A DNA stretch of 64,000 nucleotides, from contig NZ_MTAZ01000004.1 in NCBI RefSeq assembly GCF_002150785.1, positions 1-64,000 of the forward strand. The letters run 5' to 3'. The notes under the pieces are model-generated. The model ran no database searches. It saw only the letters and a list, made by a program, of their open reading frames with translations, and was not told the DNA's origin. The first letter of the stretch is position 1. The number at the start of each line of letters is the position of its first letter. The position numbers and the translations under genes are program-made. Origin of the DNA: Arenibacter amylolyticus (GTDB lineage: Bacteria > Bacteroidota > Bacteroidia > Flavobacteriales > Flavobacteriaceae). Below are positions 18,601 to 34,670 of the stretch, one piece after another.

Positions 18601-19009
18601 GGAGATTTATGAGATCTACAAAGAGCAGCAAAAATTACGTGAGCAGTTAGAGAATCAATTAAACTCCCTCCTCAAGGAAGAGGAGCGAAAATTAGGTGAA
18701 AAACTAATAAAACAAATGGAGGAATTTCAGGATCAGTTATTAGAAAACGGCATCACCGAAAAGACCTTGAGTCAGATAAACGCGCTGCATTATGAATTGC
18801 TAAAATTAAAAGATGCCAGTATGAAACAGGGGGAGCAAAAAGAACGAGAGGGTCGCGTAGGAGAAGATATTTTTCAAAGTCCCATATTAACCACCCCGGA
18901 GGTATTCAAGAAATCCGGAAACGATGTTCAGATTTTAAATAGACAAGCCCTACCTTTGCACCAAACATATAAGAACAAAGTAAAGGAATATTTTAAAAGG
19001 GATGATTGA
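15629..19009 (+). CDS. DUF4175-family large membrane/coiled-coil protein
   Basis: The 1,126-residue protein has two N-terminal transmembrane helices (about 22-45 and 53-78), a third near 150-168 (YTLIPILLLGLIWLFGDLV), and beta-rich periplasmic domains to about residue 480. A very long Lys/Glu/Gln coiled coil follows to about 730, with a Gly/Glu/Asn-rich low-complexity stretch near 890-980. This is the DUF4175 pattern of Bacteroidota. Function is not established; it is probably an envelope-spanning scaffold. The start is TTG at 15629, since the next Met (residue 22) would cut off KIISKLNAFTTKYY, which looks conserved. It overlaps ybeY by 8 bp, and the order DUF4175-ybeY-mnmG is common in Flavobacteriia. 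Confidence 0.85.
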   Translation: MDNYHKIISKLNAFTTKYYTKMLLTGTLLFLALGLMFFLFILGIEYFLWLNSTGRLLLFLLFIGIELLLLIRFIIIPLTYLFRIKRGITHKEASLIIGKHFKGIDDQLYNLLDLADNNTKSELLLASIDQRSQKLSVIPFIKAVDLSDSTKYLKYTLIPILLLGLIWLFGDLVSFMGSYKRVVNYDMAYTPPAPFQFKLLTPNLEVLDDEPFRIQLTTEGKIKPDGITMLVENKEFLLREEKGIYQYVFTPPLNSLSFYFSANGVHSKKYKLNVINTPTIQEVGMHLTFPPHTNRPNSILRGTGNANIPEGTQIEWKIRAQHTDEITLSTKDTILNFMQQDTVFSLNQKVFKNTEYMLSASNSSLKNHEELGYSITVIKDSSPTIRVQQAVDSINPTISYFQGEATDDYGLSQIRLVYFPDLNESATQRLLISQPNLNYETFYYTFPSGLELEPGTTYSYYFEALDNDAINGSKSTKSRVFTSKILKESDLLDKDIREKKQILTNMDRSMDQFKQQQKSLEELKRDQKEKERLSFNDQNNIKDFLRKQEKQEKLMQRFRNELKDNLERTKEEDKLNKLLQERLERQEMEARKNEKLLEELKRLTDKLNKEEFAKRLEELGKNQKNSQRNLEQLLELTKRYYVEQKINRLAEKLKELSKDQLNLSKSDLESATEGQQILNKKFQDITEELEELEKDNESLKKPMSLSRDEKKEASIKNDQTDALKELQKQPNPKAGEKPSSSQKASSKQKSAGEKMKQLGEQLQQAAASSGQSSIMEDAQVLRQILDNLLHFSFKQEELHTQMIGLDPNPNHISGTLIRQQELREMFNHVDDSLFTLSLRQANISELVNEQITEVYYNLDNALESFAENQFHKGASDQKYVLTATNELADLLANILENLQQQMQMGSGSGGGADFQLPDIIIGQEGLKEKMEGLGKSAQQEGENGEKEGKGKNKAGENGESQNGTNGADGEGEGNGQKEGQSGNQLSESQLREIYEIYKEQQKLREQLENQLNSLLKEEERKLGEKLIKQMEEFQDQLLENGITEKTLSQINALHYELLKLKDASMKQGEQKEREGRVGEDIFQSPILTTPEVFKKSGNDVQILNRQALPLHQTYKNKVKEYFKRDD

Positions 19010-19421
19010 CTTTCACTATTTAACGGATTTTCAAATCACTGAAGAATCCGTGTACACCGATTGGATAAATAGGATAATTTCCTCTGAAGAGGGCATACTA
19101 GATCAGTTAGATTTCATCTTCTGTGATGATGCTTATCTTCTTAAAATAAATCAGGAATATTTGGATCACGATACCTTTACGGACATTATCACCTTTCCTT
19201 ATGGGGAAGGAAAAACCATTGCGGGCGATATTTTCATCTCTGTGGAGCGCATTGAAGAAAACGCCCAGACATTTGAAGTAGCCTTTGATATTGAATTGCG
19301 CCGCGTAATGGCTCACGGCGTACTTCATATGTTAGGATTTGACGACAAAAACGACCAAGAAGAACGGTTGATGAGAGAAAAAGAAAATGAAAAACTAAAA
19401 TTGTTCCACGTGGAACACTAG
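19002..19421 (+). CDS. ybeY: Endoribonuclease YbeY
   Basis: This 139-residue metal-dependent RNase acts in 16S rRNA 3'-end maturation and ribosome quality control. The metal motif is AHGVLHMLGFDDKN: two His are present, but the third ligand of the textbook HGxLHxxGxDH motif is Asp. I recall the same loss of the third His in other flavobacterial YbeY proteins, so this may be a lineage trait. It overlaps the DUF4175 stop by 8 bp and ends 5 bp before mnmG, indicating one operon. Its last six codons (LFHVEH) are written by a perfect parS-type palindrome at 19402-19417, so this C-terminus may be dictated by the DNA site rather than by the enzyme. Confidence 0.9.
   Translation: MIDFHYLTDFQITEESVYTDWINRIISSEEGILDQLDFIFCDDAYLLKINQEYLDHDTFTDIITFPYGEGKTIAGDIFISVERIEENAQTFEVAFDIELRRVMAHGVLHMLGFDDKNDQEERLMREKENEKLKLFHVEH
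19402..19417. promoter_or_regulatory. parS-type site 1, inside the ybeY 3' end
   Basis: TGTTCCACGTGGAACA is a perfect 16-bp palindrome identical to the ParB-binding parS sequence known from pseudomonads and close to the bacterial consensus. It ends 2 bp before the ybeY stop codon and 9 bp before the mnmG start codon. Confidence 0.85.
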
Positions 19422-19426
19422 AAATT

Positions 19427-21295
19427 ATGTTTGATAAAGAATACGATGTTATTGTAGTAGGAGGAGGTCACGCAGGGGCAGAGGCGGCCGCAGCAGCGGC
19501 AAACTTGGGATCTAAAACCCTTTTAGTTACCATGAGCCTACAGAATATTGCACAAATGTCTTGCAATCCGGCTATGGGCGGAATAGCAAAAGGACAGATT
19601 GTACGGGAAATAGATGCCCTTGGAGGATACAGTGGAATCATCACAGATAAGACTGCCATTCAATTTAAAATGCTCAATAAAAGTAAGGGACCAGCAATGT
19701 GGAGTCCGCGAGCCCAAAGCGACAGGATGCGTTTTGCAGAGGAATGGCGATTAGCATTAGAAAACACCCCCAATGTGGATTTCTACCAAGAAATGGTTTC
19801 CGGATTACTCATAAAAGGCAACAAAGTAGTAGGTGTAAAAACAACCATGGGCTTAGAAATTAAATCCAAATCCGTGGTACTTACCAACGGAACTTTCCTT
19901 AATGGACTAATCCATATCGGAGATAAACAAATGGGAGGGGGACGATCTGGAGAAAAGGCGTCTACTGGAATTACGGAGCAATTAGTATCCCTTGGTTTTA
20001 TAAGCGGACGAATGAAAACTGGAACTCCCCCAAGAGTAGACGGTAGAACTTTGGATTATTCCGTAATGATTCCGCAACCCGGAGATCCAAATCCAGAGAC
20101 ATTTTCCTATTTAGACACCAAACCATTAACGCACCAACGGGCTTGCCATATGTCGCACACCAGTGCATTGGTGCACGACTTGCTAAGGGAAGGTTTCGAT
20201 AGATCCCCTATGTTCAATGGCCGAATTAAAAGTATAGGACCGCGTTACTGTCCGTCTATAGAAGACAAAATAAACCGCTTTGCAGATAAAGACAGCCATC
20301 AAATATTTGTGGAGCCAGAAGGGTGGAATACCGTAGAAGTCTATGTAAATGGATTTTCTACTTCCCTACCGGAAGACGTACAATTTAAAGCTTTGCGTTC
20401 TGTAAAAGGATTTGAAAAAGTAAAATTCTTTAGACCAGGCTACGCAATAGAATATGATTATTTCCCACCTACACAGTTAAAACATACTTTAGAAACCAAA
20501 TTGGTAGACAACCTTTATTTCGCTGGACAGATAAATGGCACCACCGGATATGAAGAAGCGGCTTCCCAAGGATTGATGGCTGGTATTAATGCCCATTTAA
20601 AAATAAACGAAAAAGACCCCTTTATCCTACAAAGAGATGAAGCTTATATTGGGGTATTAGTTGACGATTTAATCACCAAAGGAACGGAAGAGCCCTATAG
20701 AATGTTTACCTCTAGGGCAGAATACAGAACGCTCTTAAGACAGGACAATGCCGATTTAAGACTCACCCCAATGAGTTATAATATAGGGTTAGCCACCAAA
20801 GAAAGAATGGAGCGTATGGAACAAAAGGAAAAAGAATCTAATTCCTTTATCCAATTTTTTAAGGATACTAGCTATTCTCCTGAAGACGTAAATCCTATTC
20901 TAGAGGATTTAAATTCTTCCTTAGTAAAGCAACCGGATAAAATGTTCAAAGTATTCTCCAGACCAAAAGTAACCATGGAGCATATGCGACAATTAGAACC
21001 GGTTTCTAAATATATTGAAGAACACCAACTGGATAGGGAAGTATTAGAGCAGACGGAAATCCAGGTGAAATATGCCGGATATATCGCCAAGGAAAAAAAC
21101 AATGCCGACAAACTTCAGCGTTTAGAAAATATTAAAATCCCAGAAAATTTCAATTACGACAATATTAAATCCTTGTCTTACGAAGCCAGAGAAAAATTAA
21201 AATCCATTAAACCCATAAGCATTTCACAAGCCTCTAGAATAAGCGGAGTATCACCCAGTGATATAAGTGTACTTTTGGTTTATATGGGTAGATAA
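19427..21295 (+). CDS. mnmG: tRNA uridine-5-carboxymethylaminomethyl modification enzyme MnmG
   Basis: This 622-residue FAD enzyme works with MnmE to modify the wobble uridine (cmnm5U34) of several tRNAs. The FAD-binding Rossmann motif VVGGGHAGAEAA is at residues 11-22. Further family signatures are CNPAMGGIAKG, GTPPRVDGRTLDYS and NGTTGYEEAASQGL, and the C-terminal helical domain is complete. Length is normal. It follows ybeY by 5 bp and is terminated by the parS-containing palindrome at 21348-21383. mnmG (gidA) is a classic origin-proximal gene in many bacteria, which fits the two parS sites and the oriC-like region at 33.6-34.2 kb. Confidence 0.97.
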   Translation: MFDKEYDVIVVGGGHAGAEAAAAAANLGSKTLLVTMSLQNIAQMSCNPAMGGIAKGQIVREIDALGGYSGIITDKTAIQFKMLNKSKGPAMWSPRAQSDRMRFAEEWRLALENTPNVDFYQEMVSGLLIKGNKVVGVKTTMGLEIKSKSVVLTNGTFLNGLIHIGDKQMGGGRSGEKASTGITEQLVSLGFISGRMKTGTPPRVDGRTLDYSVMIPQPGDPNPETFSYLDTKPLTHQRACHMSHTSALVHDLLREGFDRSPMFNGRIKSIGPRYCPSIEDKINRFADKDSHQIFVEPEGWNTVEVYVNGFSTSLPEDVQFKALRSVKGFEKVKFFRPGYAIEYDYFPPTQLKHTLETKLVDNLYFAGQINGTTGYEEAASQGLMAGINAHLKINEKDPFILQRDEAYIGVLVDDLITKGTEEPYRMFTSRAEYRTLLRQDNADLRLTPMSYNIGLATKERMERMEQKEKESNSFIQFFKDTSYSPEDVNPILEDLNSSLVKQPDKMFKVFSRPKVTMEHMRQLEPVSKYIEEHQLDREVLEQTEIQVKYAGYIAKEKNNADKLQRLENIKIPENFNYDNIKSLSYEAREKLKSIKPISISQASRISGVSPSDISVLLVYMGR

Positions 21296-21347
21296 TAGAC
21301 CCAAAAAAAGGAGAAAGGAAGATATCCTAACAGTCTTCATTAAAATA

Positions 21348-21383
21348 AAAAAGGGAATGTTCCACGTGGAACATTCCCTTTTT
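21348..21383 (+). terminator. 36-bp perfect palindrome, mnmG terminator containing parS
   Basis: Five A residues, GGGAATGTTCCAC and its exact complement ending in five T residues form an uninterrupted 36-bp palindrome, 53 bp after the mnmG stop. As RNA it gives a GC-containing hairpin followed by U residues. The 16-bp parS core sits exactly at its centre. Confidence 0.75.
21358..21373. promoter_or_regulatory. parS-type site 2, downstream of mnmG
   Basis: TGTTCCACGTGGAACA is identical base for base to site 1 at 19402-19417. It is centred in the 36-bp palindrome at 21348-21383. The two sites are 1,956 bp apart and bracket mnmG. Confidence 0.85.
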
Positions 21384-31403: not shown

Positions 31404-33593
31404 TTAGGCTTTCTTGCCCAAGAGGGAGAAATCTAAATGACGTTTCACCAGGTCGGTACTTTTTACCATAACCACTACTTCGTCTCCTAATTGATACGTT
31501 TTGTTGGTTTTTTGACCCACAATTGCGTAGTCTTTCTCGTCAAATGTATAATAATCGTCCTTAATATCCCTAATACGGACCATCCCTTCACATTTATTTT
31601 CAATAATCTCTACATATAGCCCCCATTCGGTGACCCCAGAAATTACTCCTACAAACTCACGATCCTTATGGTCTTCCATAAATTTAATCTGCATGTATTT
31701 TATAGAATCCCTTTCTGCATTGGCCGCCAAAGACTCCATATTGGAGGAGTGCTTACACTTTTCCTCGTAAACATCTGCCTTTGCAGAGGCGCCCTTATCC
31801 AAATAGTGCTGTAATAATCTGTGTACCATTACATCCGGGTACCGTCTAATGGGAGAGGTAAAATGGGTATAGTAATCAAATGCCAAACCGTAGTGCCCAA
31901 TATTATCTACCGTATAAATGGCCTTGCTCATACTTCGGATGGCCAAGGTATCTACCAGGTTCTGCTCTTTTTTTCCCTTTACATCTTCTAAAAGCTGATT
32001 TAGGGAATTGCTAATGGACTTTTTATCCTTAAAGTTTAGTTTGTGTCCAAAACGGGAAATAATACCATTTAAGGCCATTAATTTTTCTTCATCCGGTTCG
32101 GCGTGTACACGATATACAAAAGTTTTTTCTGGCTTTTGCTTTCCTATAAATTGGGCTACCCTTCTATTGGCCAGCAGCATAAATTCTTCAATCAATTTAT
32201 TGGCATCCTTGGACTCTTTAAAATAGACGCCTTGTGGCTCGTTATTCTCATCCAGGTTAAAGCGTACTTCTACCTTATCAAAGGAAATAGCGCCTTCCCT
32301 CATCCTTTCAGATCGCATTATTTTAGCCAATCTGTCCATGGTTAGGGTAGCATTAACGATCTCCTCATCTACCTGATAAGCCTTATCCCTAATGGATACC
32401 TCCTTACTGATATTTCCTTTCTTGGTTTCTATAATATGCTGTGCTTCCTCATAGGAAAATCGTTCGTTAGATTCCGTTACGGTACGCCCAAACCATTCCT
32501 TTTTGATGCGTGCCTTATCATCCAACTCAAACACTGCAGAAAAAGTATACTTTTCCTCGTTGGGCCTTAGGGAACAAGCATTGTTAGACAATACTTCGGG
32601 TAACATGGGAACCACCCTATCTACTAAATATACGGACGTAGCCCTGTTATAGGCCTCCTCATCCAGAATAGTATCTGGCGTTAGGTAGTGGGACACATCG
32701 GCAATATGGATCCCAATTTCATAATTTCCATTTTCTAGAACGGAAAAGGAAAGTGCGTCATCAAAATCCTTGGCATCCTTTGGATCTATTGTAAAAGTAA
32801 GGCTATTACGCATATCCCTTCTTTTCTCAATTTCTTCCTGTTTTATGGACGTGTCCAAGGTATTGGCAAACATTTCTACCTCTGCCGGAAACTCGTGCGG
32901 CAGGCCATACTCGGCCAAAATGGAATGAATTTCCGTATCGTGCTCTCCCGGCTTACCCAACACCTGCACAATCTTCCCAAAGGGAGAATCGGCATTGTCT
33001 GGCCATTCCTTTAATTCTACAATTACCTTATCCCCATCCTGGGCGGTGGATAATTTATCCTTGGGAATAAAGATATCTGTATACATTCTATAATCTGTGG
33101 GACGCACAAAGGCAAAATCTTTTTGCATATCCACAATTCCCACAAAATTATCTTTAAAACGGGACACCACTTTTGTAATCTCCCCTTCTAGCTTTTTTCC
33201 CTTTCTTTTAGGAAAAATATATACCTCTACTTCATCTTTGTGGAAGGCTTTTTTAAGCTTATTGAAGGGTACAAAAACATCGTCTTCCATTCCCTCTACC
33301 ACAATATACGCATTCCCTCTTCCGGTAATATCCACTCTTCCAGTATGGTACGTTTTGGTACTAGCAATGGCCTTATAATTGCCCCTGCCCTCTTCCAAAA
33401 TTCTTTTCTTCTCTTTTAATTCGGTCAATCGCTTTATAAGCAGATTTCTAGCGTTGGCATCTGTAATACCAATCTTAGCAGCTATTTGTTTATAGTTAAA
33501 GGTTTTCTTTGGTTCCTTTTCTAGAACCGTAAATATCCCTTTAGTTATTTCGTTTTTTAAATGATTCTTGCTCTTTTTTTTCTTCTTTGACAT
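31404..33593 (-). CDS. rnr: Ribonuclease R
   Basis: This 729-residue 3'-5' exoribonuclease (RNase II/R family) degrades structured RNA. It has an N-terminal winged-helix-like region (NYKQIAAKIGITDANARNLLIKRLTEL), cold-shock OB domains at about 80-230, and the RNB catalytic domain with the metal-binding Asp cluster FTIDPKDAKDFDDALS. The conserved HFTSPIRRYPDVMVHR follows, with a C-terminal S1 domain (FVGVISGVTEWGLYVEI). Basic N-terminus (KKKKKSKNHLK). Complete. It is transcribed away from the 642-bp oriC-like gap. Confidence 0.95.
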   Translation of the reverse strand: MSKKKKKSKNHLKNEITKGIFTVLEKEPKKTFNYKQIAAKIGITDANARNLLIKRLTELKEKKRILEEGRGNYKAIASTKTYHTGRVDITGRGNAYIVVEGMEDDVFVPFNKLKKAFHKDEVEVYIFPKRKGKKLEGEITKVVSRFKDNFVGIVDMQKDFAFVRPTDYRMYTDIFIPKDKLSTAQDGDKVIVELKEWPDNADSPFGKIVQVLGKPGEHDTEIHSILAEYGLPHEFPAEVEMFANTLDTSIKQEEIEKRRDMRNSLTFTIDPKDAKDFDDALSFSVLENGNYEIGIHIADVSHYLTPDTILDEEAYNRATSVYLVDRVVPMLPEVLSNNACSLRPNEEKYTFSAVFELDDKARIKKEWFGRTVTESNERFSYEEAQHIIETKKGNISKEVSIRDKAYQVDEEIVNATLTMDRLAKIMRSERMREGAISFDKVEVRFNLDENNEPQGVYFKESKDANKLIEEFMLLANRRVAQFIGKQKPEKTFVYRVHAEPDEEKLMALNGIISRFGHKLNFKDKKSISNSLNQLLEDVKGKKEQNLVDTLAIRSMSKAIYTVDNIGHYGLAFDYYTHFTSPIRRYPDVMVHRLLQHYLDKGASAKADVYEEKCKHSSNMESLAANAERDSIKYMQIKFMEDHKDREFVGVISGVTEWGLYVEIIENKCEGMVRIRDIKDDYYTFDEKDYAIVGQKTNKTYQLGDEVVVMVKSTDLVKRHLDFSLLGKKA

Positions 33594-34235
33594 TAAGCGT
33601 TTAATTTTTGGAAAATTACGAATTTATATCCATTGTCTTTCTATTCTCTTTTAGAAGTTAATCTTTGTTGTTATCAACATATACTATATATACATCTTTC
33701 TTTTTTCTAAAATTTTTAAAAAAAATGATTGTTATTATTGTCTGTTGATAGGGGGAATAATTTTATGCTTTTATACTTGCTTTGAGTAGCATTGGAAGTT
33801 TATTGACAACTTATTGACTAGTAATTACAATAATTATCAAGGGATTGACAAGGTTATCAACAGTTATTGATAACTCCTTTGAACATAAAATTAGTGATAA
33901 GTAAAATTAATTTTACTGTTAATTACTTCGGATATGTGTTTAATATCTTTTGATGAAATTTGAAAAGTAAATTATTAATCTTCCCGAAACTTTTGTAAGG
34001 CAACTTTAAAACGGATATTAAAAATTTAATAGTAAGATTTTGTCGGCTGTTTATCAACAATTAACAAGTATTACTAAACCGTTAAATAACAACTGATTCC
34101 GTTTTTTTAGAAAATTATGTTGTTAATAAGGTGTAATATGTGGTGAAACCACTGGTATTTGTACATTTGTACTCTTCAATATAGTTGAAAATGAACGTTT
34201 TTATAATACTATAATCATAACCTAACTTTAAAAAG
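33594..34235. other. Candidate chromosomal replication origin (oriC)
   Basis: This is a 642-bp AT-rich gap between two divergent genes and the longest gene-free stretch in the window. DnaA-box-like TTATCAACA occurs at 33671-33679, 33854-33862 and 34051-34059, one base from the E. coli TTATCCACA. Close variants lie at 33743 (complement CTATCAACA), 33800 (TTATTGACA), 33811 (TTATTGACT), 33834 (TTATCAAGG), 33864 (TTATTGATAA) and 34121 (complement TTATTAACA). GTTATCAA and TTGATAAC form a perfect inverted repeat at 33853-33874. An A/T-only-like tract at 33680-33740 could be the unwinding element. Two parS sites are 12-14 kb away. Confidence 0.6.
34162..34169 (+). promoter_or_regulatory. Candidate -7 box of rpiB
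   Basis: TACATTTG is an exact TAnnTTTG match, 66 bp before the ATG at 34236. GTG at 34140-34142 has the right 19-bp spacing but is one base from TTG. Confidence 0.5.
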
Positions 34236-34670
34236 ATGAAAATAGCCGTTGGAAATGATCACGCGGGAACCGAATATAAACTAGCTATTGTTGGCTACTT
34301 AAGATCCCTAGGTGTAGAAGTTGTTAATTATGGTACGGATGGGATAGAAAGTGTGGACTATGCAGATTTTATTCATCCTGTAGCTAGTGATGTTGATAAG
34401 GGCAAGGTTGATTTAGGAATAATAATCTGCGGTAGCGGGAACGGCGCTGCAATGACGGCCAATAAATATGAAAATATTAGGGCTGCCCTATGTTGGACAA
34501 CCGAAATAGTAAAATTAGCTAGGGAACATAACAATGCCAATATTCTTAGCTTACCAGCAAGATATATTTCCTTACCTCAAGCTTTAGATATGGTAAAAAC
34601 ATTCCTAGATACTTCCTTTGAGGGGGGGCGCCATGAAGACCGAATAAAAAAAATACCCCATTGTATATAA
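34236..34670 (+). CDS. rpiB: RpiB/LacAB-family sugar-phosphate isomerase
   Basis: This 144-residue protein interconverts ribose-5-phosphate and ribulose-5-phosphate in the pentose phosphate pathway. The family features are the N-terminal GNDHAGTEYK and the active-site loop IICGSGNGAAMTANKY, with the catalytic Cys in CGSGNG (usually CGTGIG, so slightly divergent). The His in the ENIRAALCWTTEIVKLAREHNNANILSL region is typical. Length is normal. It lies to the right of the oriC-like gap, transcribed away from it, and 99 bp before a GNAT gene on the same strand. Confidence 0.92.
   Translation: MKIAVGNDHAGTEYKLAIVGYLRSLGVEVVNYGTDGIESVDYADFIHPVASDVDKGKVDLGIIICGSGNGAAMTANKYENIRAALCWTTEIVKLAREHNNANILSLPARYISLPQALDMVKTFLDTSFEGGRHEDRIKKIPHCI

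Follow-up and report, generated by a model that had tools for sequence, protein, structure and literature searches.

The genome of Arenibacter amylolyticus (Flavobacteriaceae) carries two identical 16-bp palindromes of the sequence TGTTCCACGTGGAACA, one on each side of the gene mnmG, and these are with high confidence the parS sites, or centromere, of a chromosomal ParABS system and predicted targets of ParB. While sites of this kind are familiar, their constant position at mnmG, remote from the gene encoding ParB, is notable. The original prediction of a centromere-like locus of a flavobacterial chromosome is supported by the uniqueness of the sites, by the presence of ParB and ParA, by the conservation at the mnmG flanks and by the GC skew. 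It did not include the overlap with ybeY, the hairpin at the second site, the family-wide conservation, the distance to parAB or the lack of Smc and ScpB matches.

The Two Palindromes and Their Uniqueness

The window, i.e., the whole stretch of 64,000 nucleotides analysed, covers the initial 64 kb of C37, a contig of 546 kb, and the identities of mnmG, ybeY, rnr, rpiB and rnpA were confirmed in it with Pfam. Site 1 is located at 19402..19417 and site 2 at 21358..21373 (both listed without strand), and mnmG (gidA; PF01134) lies between them at 19427..21295 on the plus strand. Both copies bracket the gene at the originally noted coordinates, and 1,956 bp separate their starts. While identity and positions stood, the palindrome anatomy had to be corrected for both copies: the first is not intergenic and forms the end of ybeY, and the second, which begins 62 nt past the mnmG stop codon, is the core of a longer palindrome.

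Allowing up to three mismatches, no further match to TGTTCCACGTGGAACA was found in the window, and dinucleotide shuffles (n = 100) searched with the same tolerance gave a mean of 0.14 matches, with one of the 100 attaining two, these being counts with mismatches allowed rather than exact-match counts. The genome-wide search that had been proposed as a check revealed no scatter. In the draft of 3,985,366 bp in 101 contigs, exact copies are present only at the two flanks of mnmG, a further copy in a gap of the draft being possible, and the reversed-pattern control gave zero matches in the same 3,985,366 bp. One additional place, C29:3852, matches with two mismatches. With equal base use approximately 0.001 exact copies and approximately one copy within two mismatches are expected by chance, and because of the latter value C29:3852 is regarded as background. 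Chance or scattered occurrence was rejected because of the restriction of the exact copies to the mnmG flanks. A known RNA family at the sites was also rejected, with zero Rfam matches in the whole window at gathering thresholds.

The palindromes agree with the parS consensus in every base. As originally predicted, the 16-mer is the parS known from pseudomonads: PMC7022226 shows the identical sequence as the parS of Pseudomonas putida, and in PMC4368675 it represents parS2 and parS3 of Pseudomonas aeruginosa, which are located near oriC and bound by ParB.

ParB and ParA

The check for parA and parB genes, likewise proposed beforehand, revealed a single ParB and an adjoining ParA gene. ParB was the one match over the curated cut-off genome-wide (E 1.5e-49) and it contains the N-terminal ParB_N, the helix-turn-helix HTH_ParB and the dimerisation domain ParB_C. 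The ParA gene (L004:608-1387; AAA_31 and CbiA domains) is located directly upstream of parB and its stop codon overlaps the parB start. In the domain plan, in the parS-type residues of the helix-turn-helix and in the GERR motif the flavobacterial ParB resembles ParB of the ParB-parS systems of Caulobacter and Bacillus. The motifs GERRFRA and GK[KN]RST...N...MGHGRA are kept in all eight aligned flavobacterial ParBs, and so are the equivalents of Caulobacter R173 and G201, assigned by eye. These two residues are tied to parS specificity in the accessible text of PMC7383237, from which the correspondence to the Caulobacter positions 170-173, 178, 201 and 204 was taken by eye, based on the text and not on a structure. 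ParB was found in all 80 genomes tested.

In the source genome parAB is encoded on a different contig from the parS sites, while in P. aeruginosa parAB is reported at approximately 7 kb from oriC (PMC4368675, accessible text). The flavobacterial parAB is remote from parS, unlike the classic layout. The distance from parB to the sites amounts to 0.81-1.09 Mb in six single-chromosome relatives (G013, G020, G052, G069, G074 and Polaribacter sp. BM10, L086) and to 0.92 Mb in G086, which consists of one 3.14-Mb contig; as a side observation, the distance is rather constant, within 0.81-1.09 Mb in all seven genomes compared. G086 also contains two further ParB-like matches close together (G086:C1:2364608-2366953), one of them in a 616-residue frame and the other with three internal stops, which are perhaps a ParB of a mobile element and a decayed copy.

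Conservation of the Sites Around mnmG

We compared 81 mnmG loci, i.e., the window and the best 80 of 590 (L034-L113), counting as a site any match to TGTTYCACGTGRAACA with up to two mismatches. In 72 of these 81 loci mnmG is flanked by sites both upstream and downstream; an upstream site (within 250 nt) exists in 78 and a downstream site (within 150 nt) in 73. Altogether 185 sites fall into the near flanks (32,192 bases), compared to 37 in the remaining 1,054,922 bases, where some are part of arrays that extend past 250 nt. Nine of the 81 loci (window plus best 80 of 590) do not have both sites (L089, L103, L104, L108-L113): six lack only the downstream site, L111 lacks only the upstream site, and L089 and L109 lack both. 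Besides L089, which is titled Capnocytophaga and has zero parS-like sites at mnmG but ParB in its genome, their titles read Cyclobacteriaceae, Fluviicola, Emticicia, Raineya, Flavobacteriales MAG, Bacteroidia MAG, Algoriphagus and Marinoscillum. The downstream site thus seems to be characteristic mostly of Flavobacteriaceae and their near relatives. No ybeY match was found in the 13.9-kb locus L089 either, and this locus may be rearranged.

Within the family, 96 of 100 Flavobacteriaceae genomes, the source genome included, contain a site within one mismatch, compared to four of 100 with the reversed control pattern. At this tolerance two sites are present in 69 genomes, one in 19, at least three in eight and none in four (G004, G009, G014, G032). 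Because these four genomes encode ParB although they contain no site within one mismatch, the presence of ParB is an imperfect predictor of a site. Among 29 loci fetched from other family genomes, mnmG lies beside the site in 28, G020 being the exception. At the level of the phylum, the exact degenerate TGTTYCACGTGRAACA occurs in 292 of 392 genomes (123 of 179 genera; reversed control in two of 392) and is absent from the other 100. A total of 29 loci were followed up from this search, and mnmG is present within the 3-kb locus in 22 of them, while in the remaining seven (L263-L266, L272-L274) no mnmG, ParA, ParB, ybeY or rnr was found.

Several variations were observed. In some species of Tenacibaculum and Polaribacter the sites are two to three bases off the consensus; the drifted mnmG-flank sites in L084, L085 and L086 read, for instance, AGTTCCACGTGGAACT, TGTTCCATGTGGAACG and TGTTCCTCGTGGAACA. 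Flavobacterium sp. MC2016-06 carries a 117-bp tandem repeat of 5.3 copies upstream of mnmG (L061:5321-5941), the unit of which bears TGTTCCACATGGAACA, and further parS-like sites extend back to ybeY, giving an array-like centromere. Two MAG contigs titled Limnohabitans (L053) and Chitinophaga pinensis (L076) contain an mnmG with 78% and 76% identity to that of the window, flanked by sites of the flavobacterial type, and these taxon labels may be wrong.

The position of the sites at both ends of a single gene in most of the 81 loci (window plus best 80 of 590) is also what would be expected if the palindromes were operators of another DNA-binding protein, such as a local regulator of ybeY and mnmG. 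This explanation is extremely improbable in view of the exact identity to the parS sequence in the accessible text of the Pseudomonas papers and of a ParB with parS-type specificity residues in the same genome. Moreover, many Flavobacterium loci contain several sites each, and in G020, which is a single contig, three sites are located beyond the end of rnr, at a distance of 3-5 kb, with no mnmG found in the 20 kb fetched. The reading as parS agrees with the ParB specificity residues, with the ParA partner and with the conservation of both the site and its place. Observations that speak against it are the remote parAB, the four family genomes that encode ParB but have no site within one mismatch, L089 with ParB but no sites at mnmG, the nine loci with an incomplete pair, the drifted sites of Tenacibaculum and Polaribacter, the 100 phylum genomes and seven phylum loci that deviate, and the noisy GC skew of the relatives.

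Site 1 at the End of ybeY

The endoribonuclease gene ybeY (PF02130) covers 19002..19421 on the plus strand, and its last codons represent parS site 1, which is translated as FHVEH and followed by the stop codon, with the mnmG start 5 nt beyond. The site could accordingly be conserved by selection on the C-terminus of the YbeY protein instead of as a DNA site, and in 39 of the 81 loci (window plus best 80 of 590) the site is indeed read in the frame FH[VM][EK], including L104, in which it is internal to the ybeY reading frame and not at or near its end. The codons used speak against this explanation. Histidine is encoded by CAC in 39 of 39 in-frame sites (background 32%), these loci being related and hence not independent draws; valine is encoded by GTG in 37 of 37 (background 16%), two loci having ATG instead, and TTC is used in 31 of 39 (background 22%), in both cases with kinship ignored. 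Furthermore, L093 and L110 use a different frame of the same DNA, which gives VSRET, and in 34 of the 81 loci (window plus best 80 of 590) the site follows the ybeY stop codon, with FHV present in none of these 34 tails. In six of the 81 loci from this set ybeY, searched by tblastn, or the site was not found. Codon choice, the other frames and the sites outside ybeY together indicate that at site 1 it is the DNA itself, and not the peptide, that is kept; protein-level selection on the YbeY tail was rejected on these grounds and we assign it hardly any probability.

Site 2 and the Hairpin Behind mnmG

In the source genome site 2 lies at the centre of a perfect palindrome of 36 bp with 18-bp arms at 21348..21383 (no strand assigned), which constitutes a terminator-like hairpin. 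Its outer arms consist of A5 and T5, and on either strand it therefore reads as a stem containing G+C with a T run at its end. The segment 21340-21395 folds with -23.7 kcal/mol. With a stem-loop of 18-bp arms followed by T5 the structure has the form of an intrinsic terminator, and termination is predicted. A terminator scan listed site 2 as terminator-like on the minus strand and the shorter site 1 likewise, with 22 such sites in 20 kb compared to 19.3 expected from shuffles.

These properties, namely the perfect palindrome, the T run and the folding energy, would also fit the assumption that site 2 is nothing but the intrinsic terminator of mnmG and that its resemblance to parS is incidental. 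The comparison across loci makes this very improbable. Only five of the 73 downstream sites (in 71 of the 81 loci; window plus best 80 of 590) extend at least 8 bp past the 16-mer, i.e., those of the window, L036, L044, L084 and L106, and 33 of the 73 show zero extension even if G-U pairs are allowed. Upstream sites extend to this length in three of 124 cases, a T-rich window follows 23 of the 73 downstream versus 38 of the 124 upstream sites, and the identical upstream copy, site 1, lies outside any long hairpin. The low number of long extensions indicates that the parS-based terminator-like hairpin is sporadic and therefore not the cause of the conservation; the hairpin behind mnmG is not a conserved feature. 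We therefore rejected termination as the main function of site 2, since it is the 16-mer core and not the hairpin that is conserved; a site serving both as parS and as a terminator would still be compatible with the parS reading.

Position Relative to the Replication Origin

A candidate oriC is located at 33594..34235 (no strand assigned), in the AT-rich intergenic region between rnr and rpiB, which contains three TTATCAACA boxes and a sign change of the GC skew. A fourth box of the cluster is found at 34391 inside rpiB, and four of the six TTATCAACA boxes in the window fall into 33,671-34,399 (0.73 kb). The adjacent rnr gene (RNase R, Pfam) covers 31404..33593 on the minus strand. Within the window the GC skew amounts to -0.041 left of 33.8 kb and to +0.018 right of it, and in the rest of C37 it is positive in 19 of 20 samples. 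This analysis, which addresses the terminal position named beforehand as a refuting outcome, shows that the locus is not at the terminus and places the sites of the source genome 12-15 kb from a skew turn near 34 kb, i.e., in the origin region.

The prediction of an oriC-like region at 33.6-34.2 kb fared less uniformly. It is plausible in this genome by the skew turn and the box cluster, but exact TTATC[AC]ACA boxes upstream of rnr exist in only three of eight genomes, the source included. The rnr gene itself is found approximately 3-27 kb from the sites (or mnmG) in all eight. In five relatives (G013, G020, G052, G069, G074) the sites are never located at the maximum of the cumulative skew, and the skew turn, determined from sampled and not from full-sequence skew, is clear in two of the five: G013 and G052 have it approximately 40-70 kb away from the sites, which is about 20-45 kb past rnr. 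In G020 the coarse skew minimum is 0.13-0.26 Mb from the sites; G069 shows a weak skew change at 25-35 kb and a coarse minimum at 0.2-0.34 Mb from the sites, and in G074 the minimum is indistinct, perhaps at 0.3-0.44 Mb. The gene dnaA is located on contig C40, away from both the candidate oriC and the sites. An oriC in the gap between rnr and rpiB is plausible, though not secured.

According to the accessible text of PMC10197239, parS sites and GC skew were used to place the origin in gut bacteria including Bacteroides caecimuris and Muribaculum intestinale, which belong to the same phylum as the source genome, and in the 12 species covered there the origin is not always at dnaA. That study searched with TGTTTCACGTGAAACA and two mismatches, and an arrangement of the sites at the flanks of mnmG is not among what its accessible text describes. 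In the open-licence literature we found no study of ParB-parS in flavobacteria. The site type is already known, while the bracketing of mnmG, the distance to parAB and the overlap with ybeY were not found described in the open-licence literature; no priority is claimed.

A Model for a Probable Flavobacterial Centromere

From the known systems we infer ParB binding, clamping, spreading and segregation at this locus. The distantly encoded ParB would recognise each 16-bp palindrome through its helix-turn-helix domain, would load as a CTP-dependent clamp and would slide into the adjacent DNA, mnmG included. ParB would thereby accumulate approximately 12-15 kb from the probable origin, and ParA would use this cluster as a handle for separating newly copied origin regions. 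Site 1 fits into ybeY and there dictates the peptide FHVEH, and site 2 has, in the source lineage, become part of the terminator-like hairpin behind mnmG.

In Bacillus, ParB-parS operates with Smc loading. Unlike in Bacillus, a search for Smc (TIGR02168) gave no match over the cut-off in seven of seven flavobacterial genomes, with weak matches of at best E 1.1e-7, and ScpB (TIGR00281) gave no match in eight of eight. The same searches scored over the cut-off in 10 of 14 (Smc) and nine of 14 (ScpB) control genomes. With Smc and ScpB as the components covered by these searches, the canonical Smc-ParABS module was not found. The lack of matches agrees with a Hi-C study that, in its accessible text, reports no known condensin in two Bacteroidetes (PMC10197239).

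A more far-reaching reading, which we regard as rather unlikely, is that of a condensin-independent flavobacterial centromere, in which a parS pair flanking mnmG is located by the origin, ParB clamps fill mnmG, parAB is encoded approximately 1 Mb away, Smc-ScpAB does not exist, and the hairpin of site 2 stops, in some lineages, RNA polymerase from passing the ParB loading point. If this were true, segregation would be accomplished by ParA and ParB alone or with an undiscovered condensin. In any case these bacteria provide a test case of a ParABS system in which neither Smc nor ScpB is detected and parAB and parS lie far apart, and the tail of ybeY illustrates clearly how the last residues of a protein are dictated by a centromere sequence. 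For flavobacterial genomes, drafts included, the sites represent a sequence-based marker of the origin region, even if dnaA is located on another contig.
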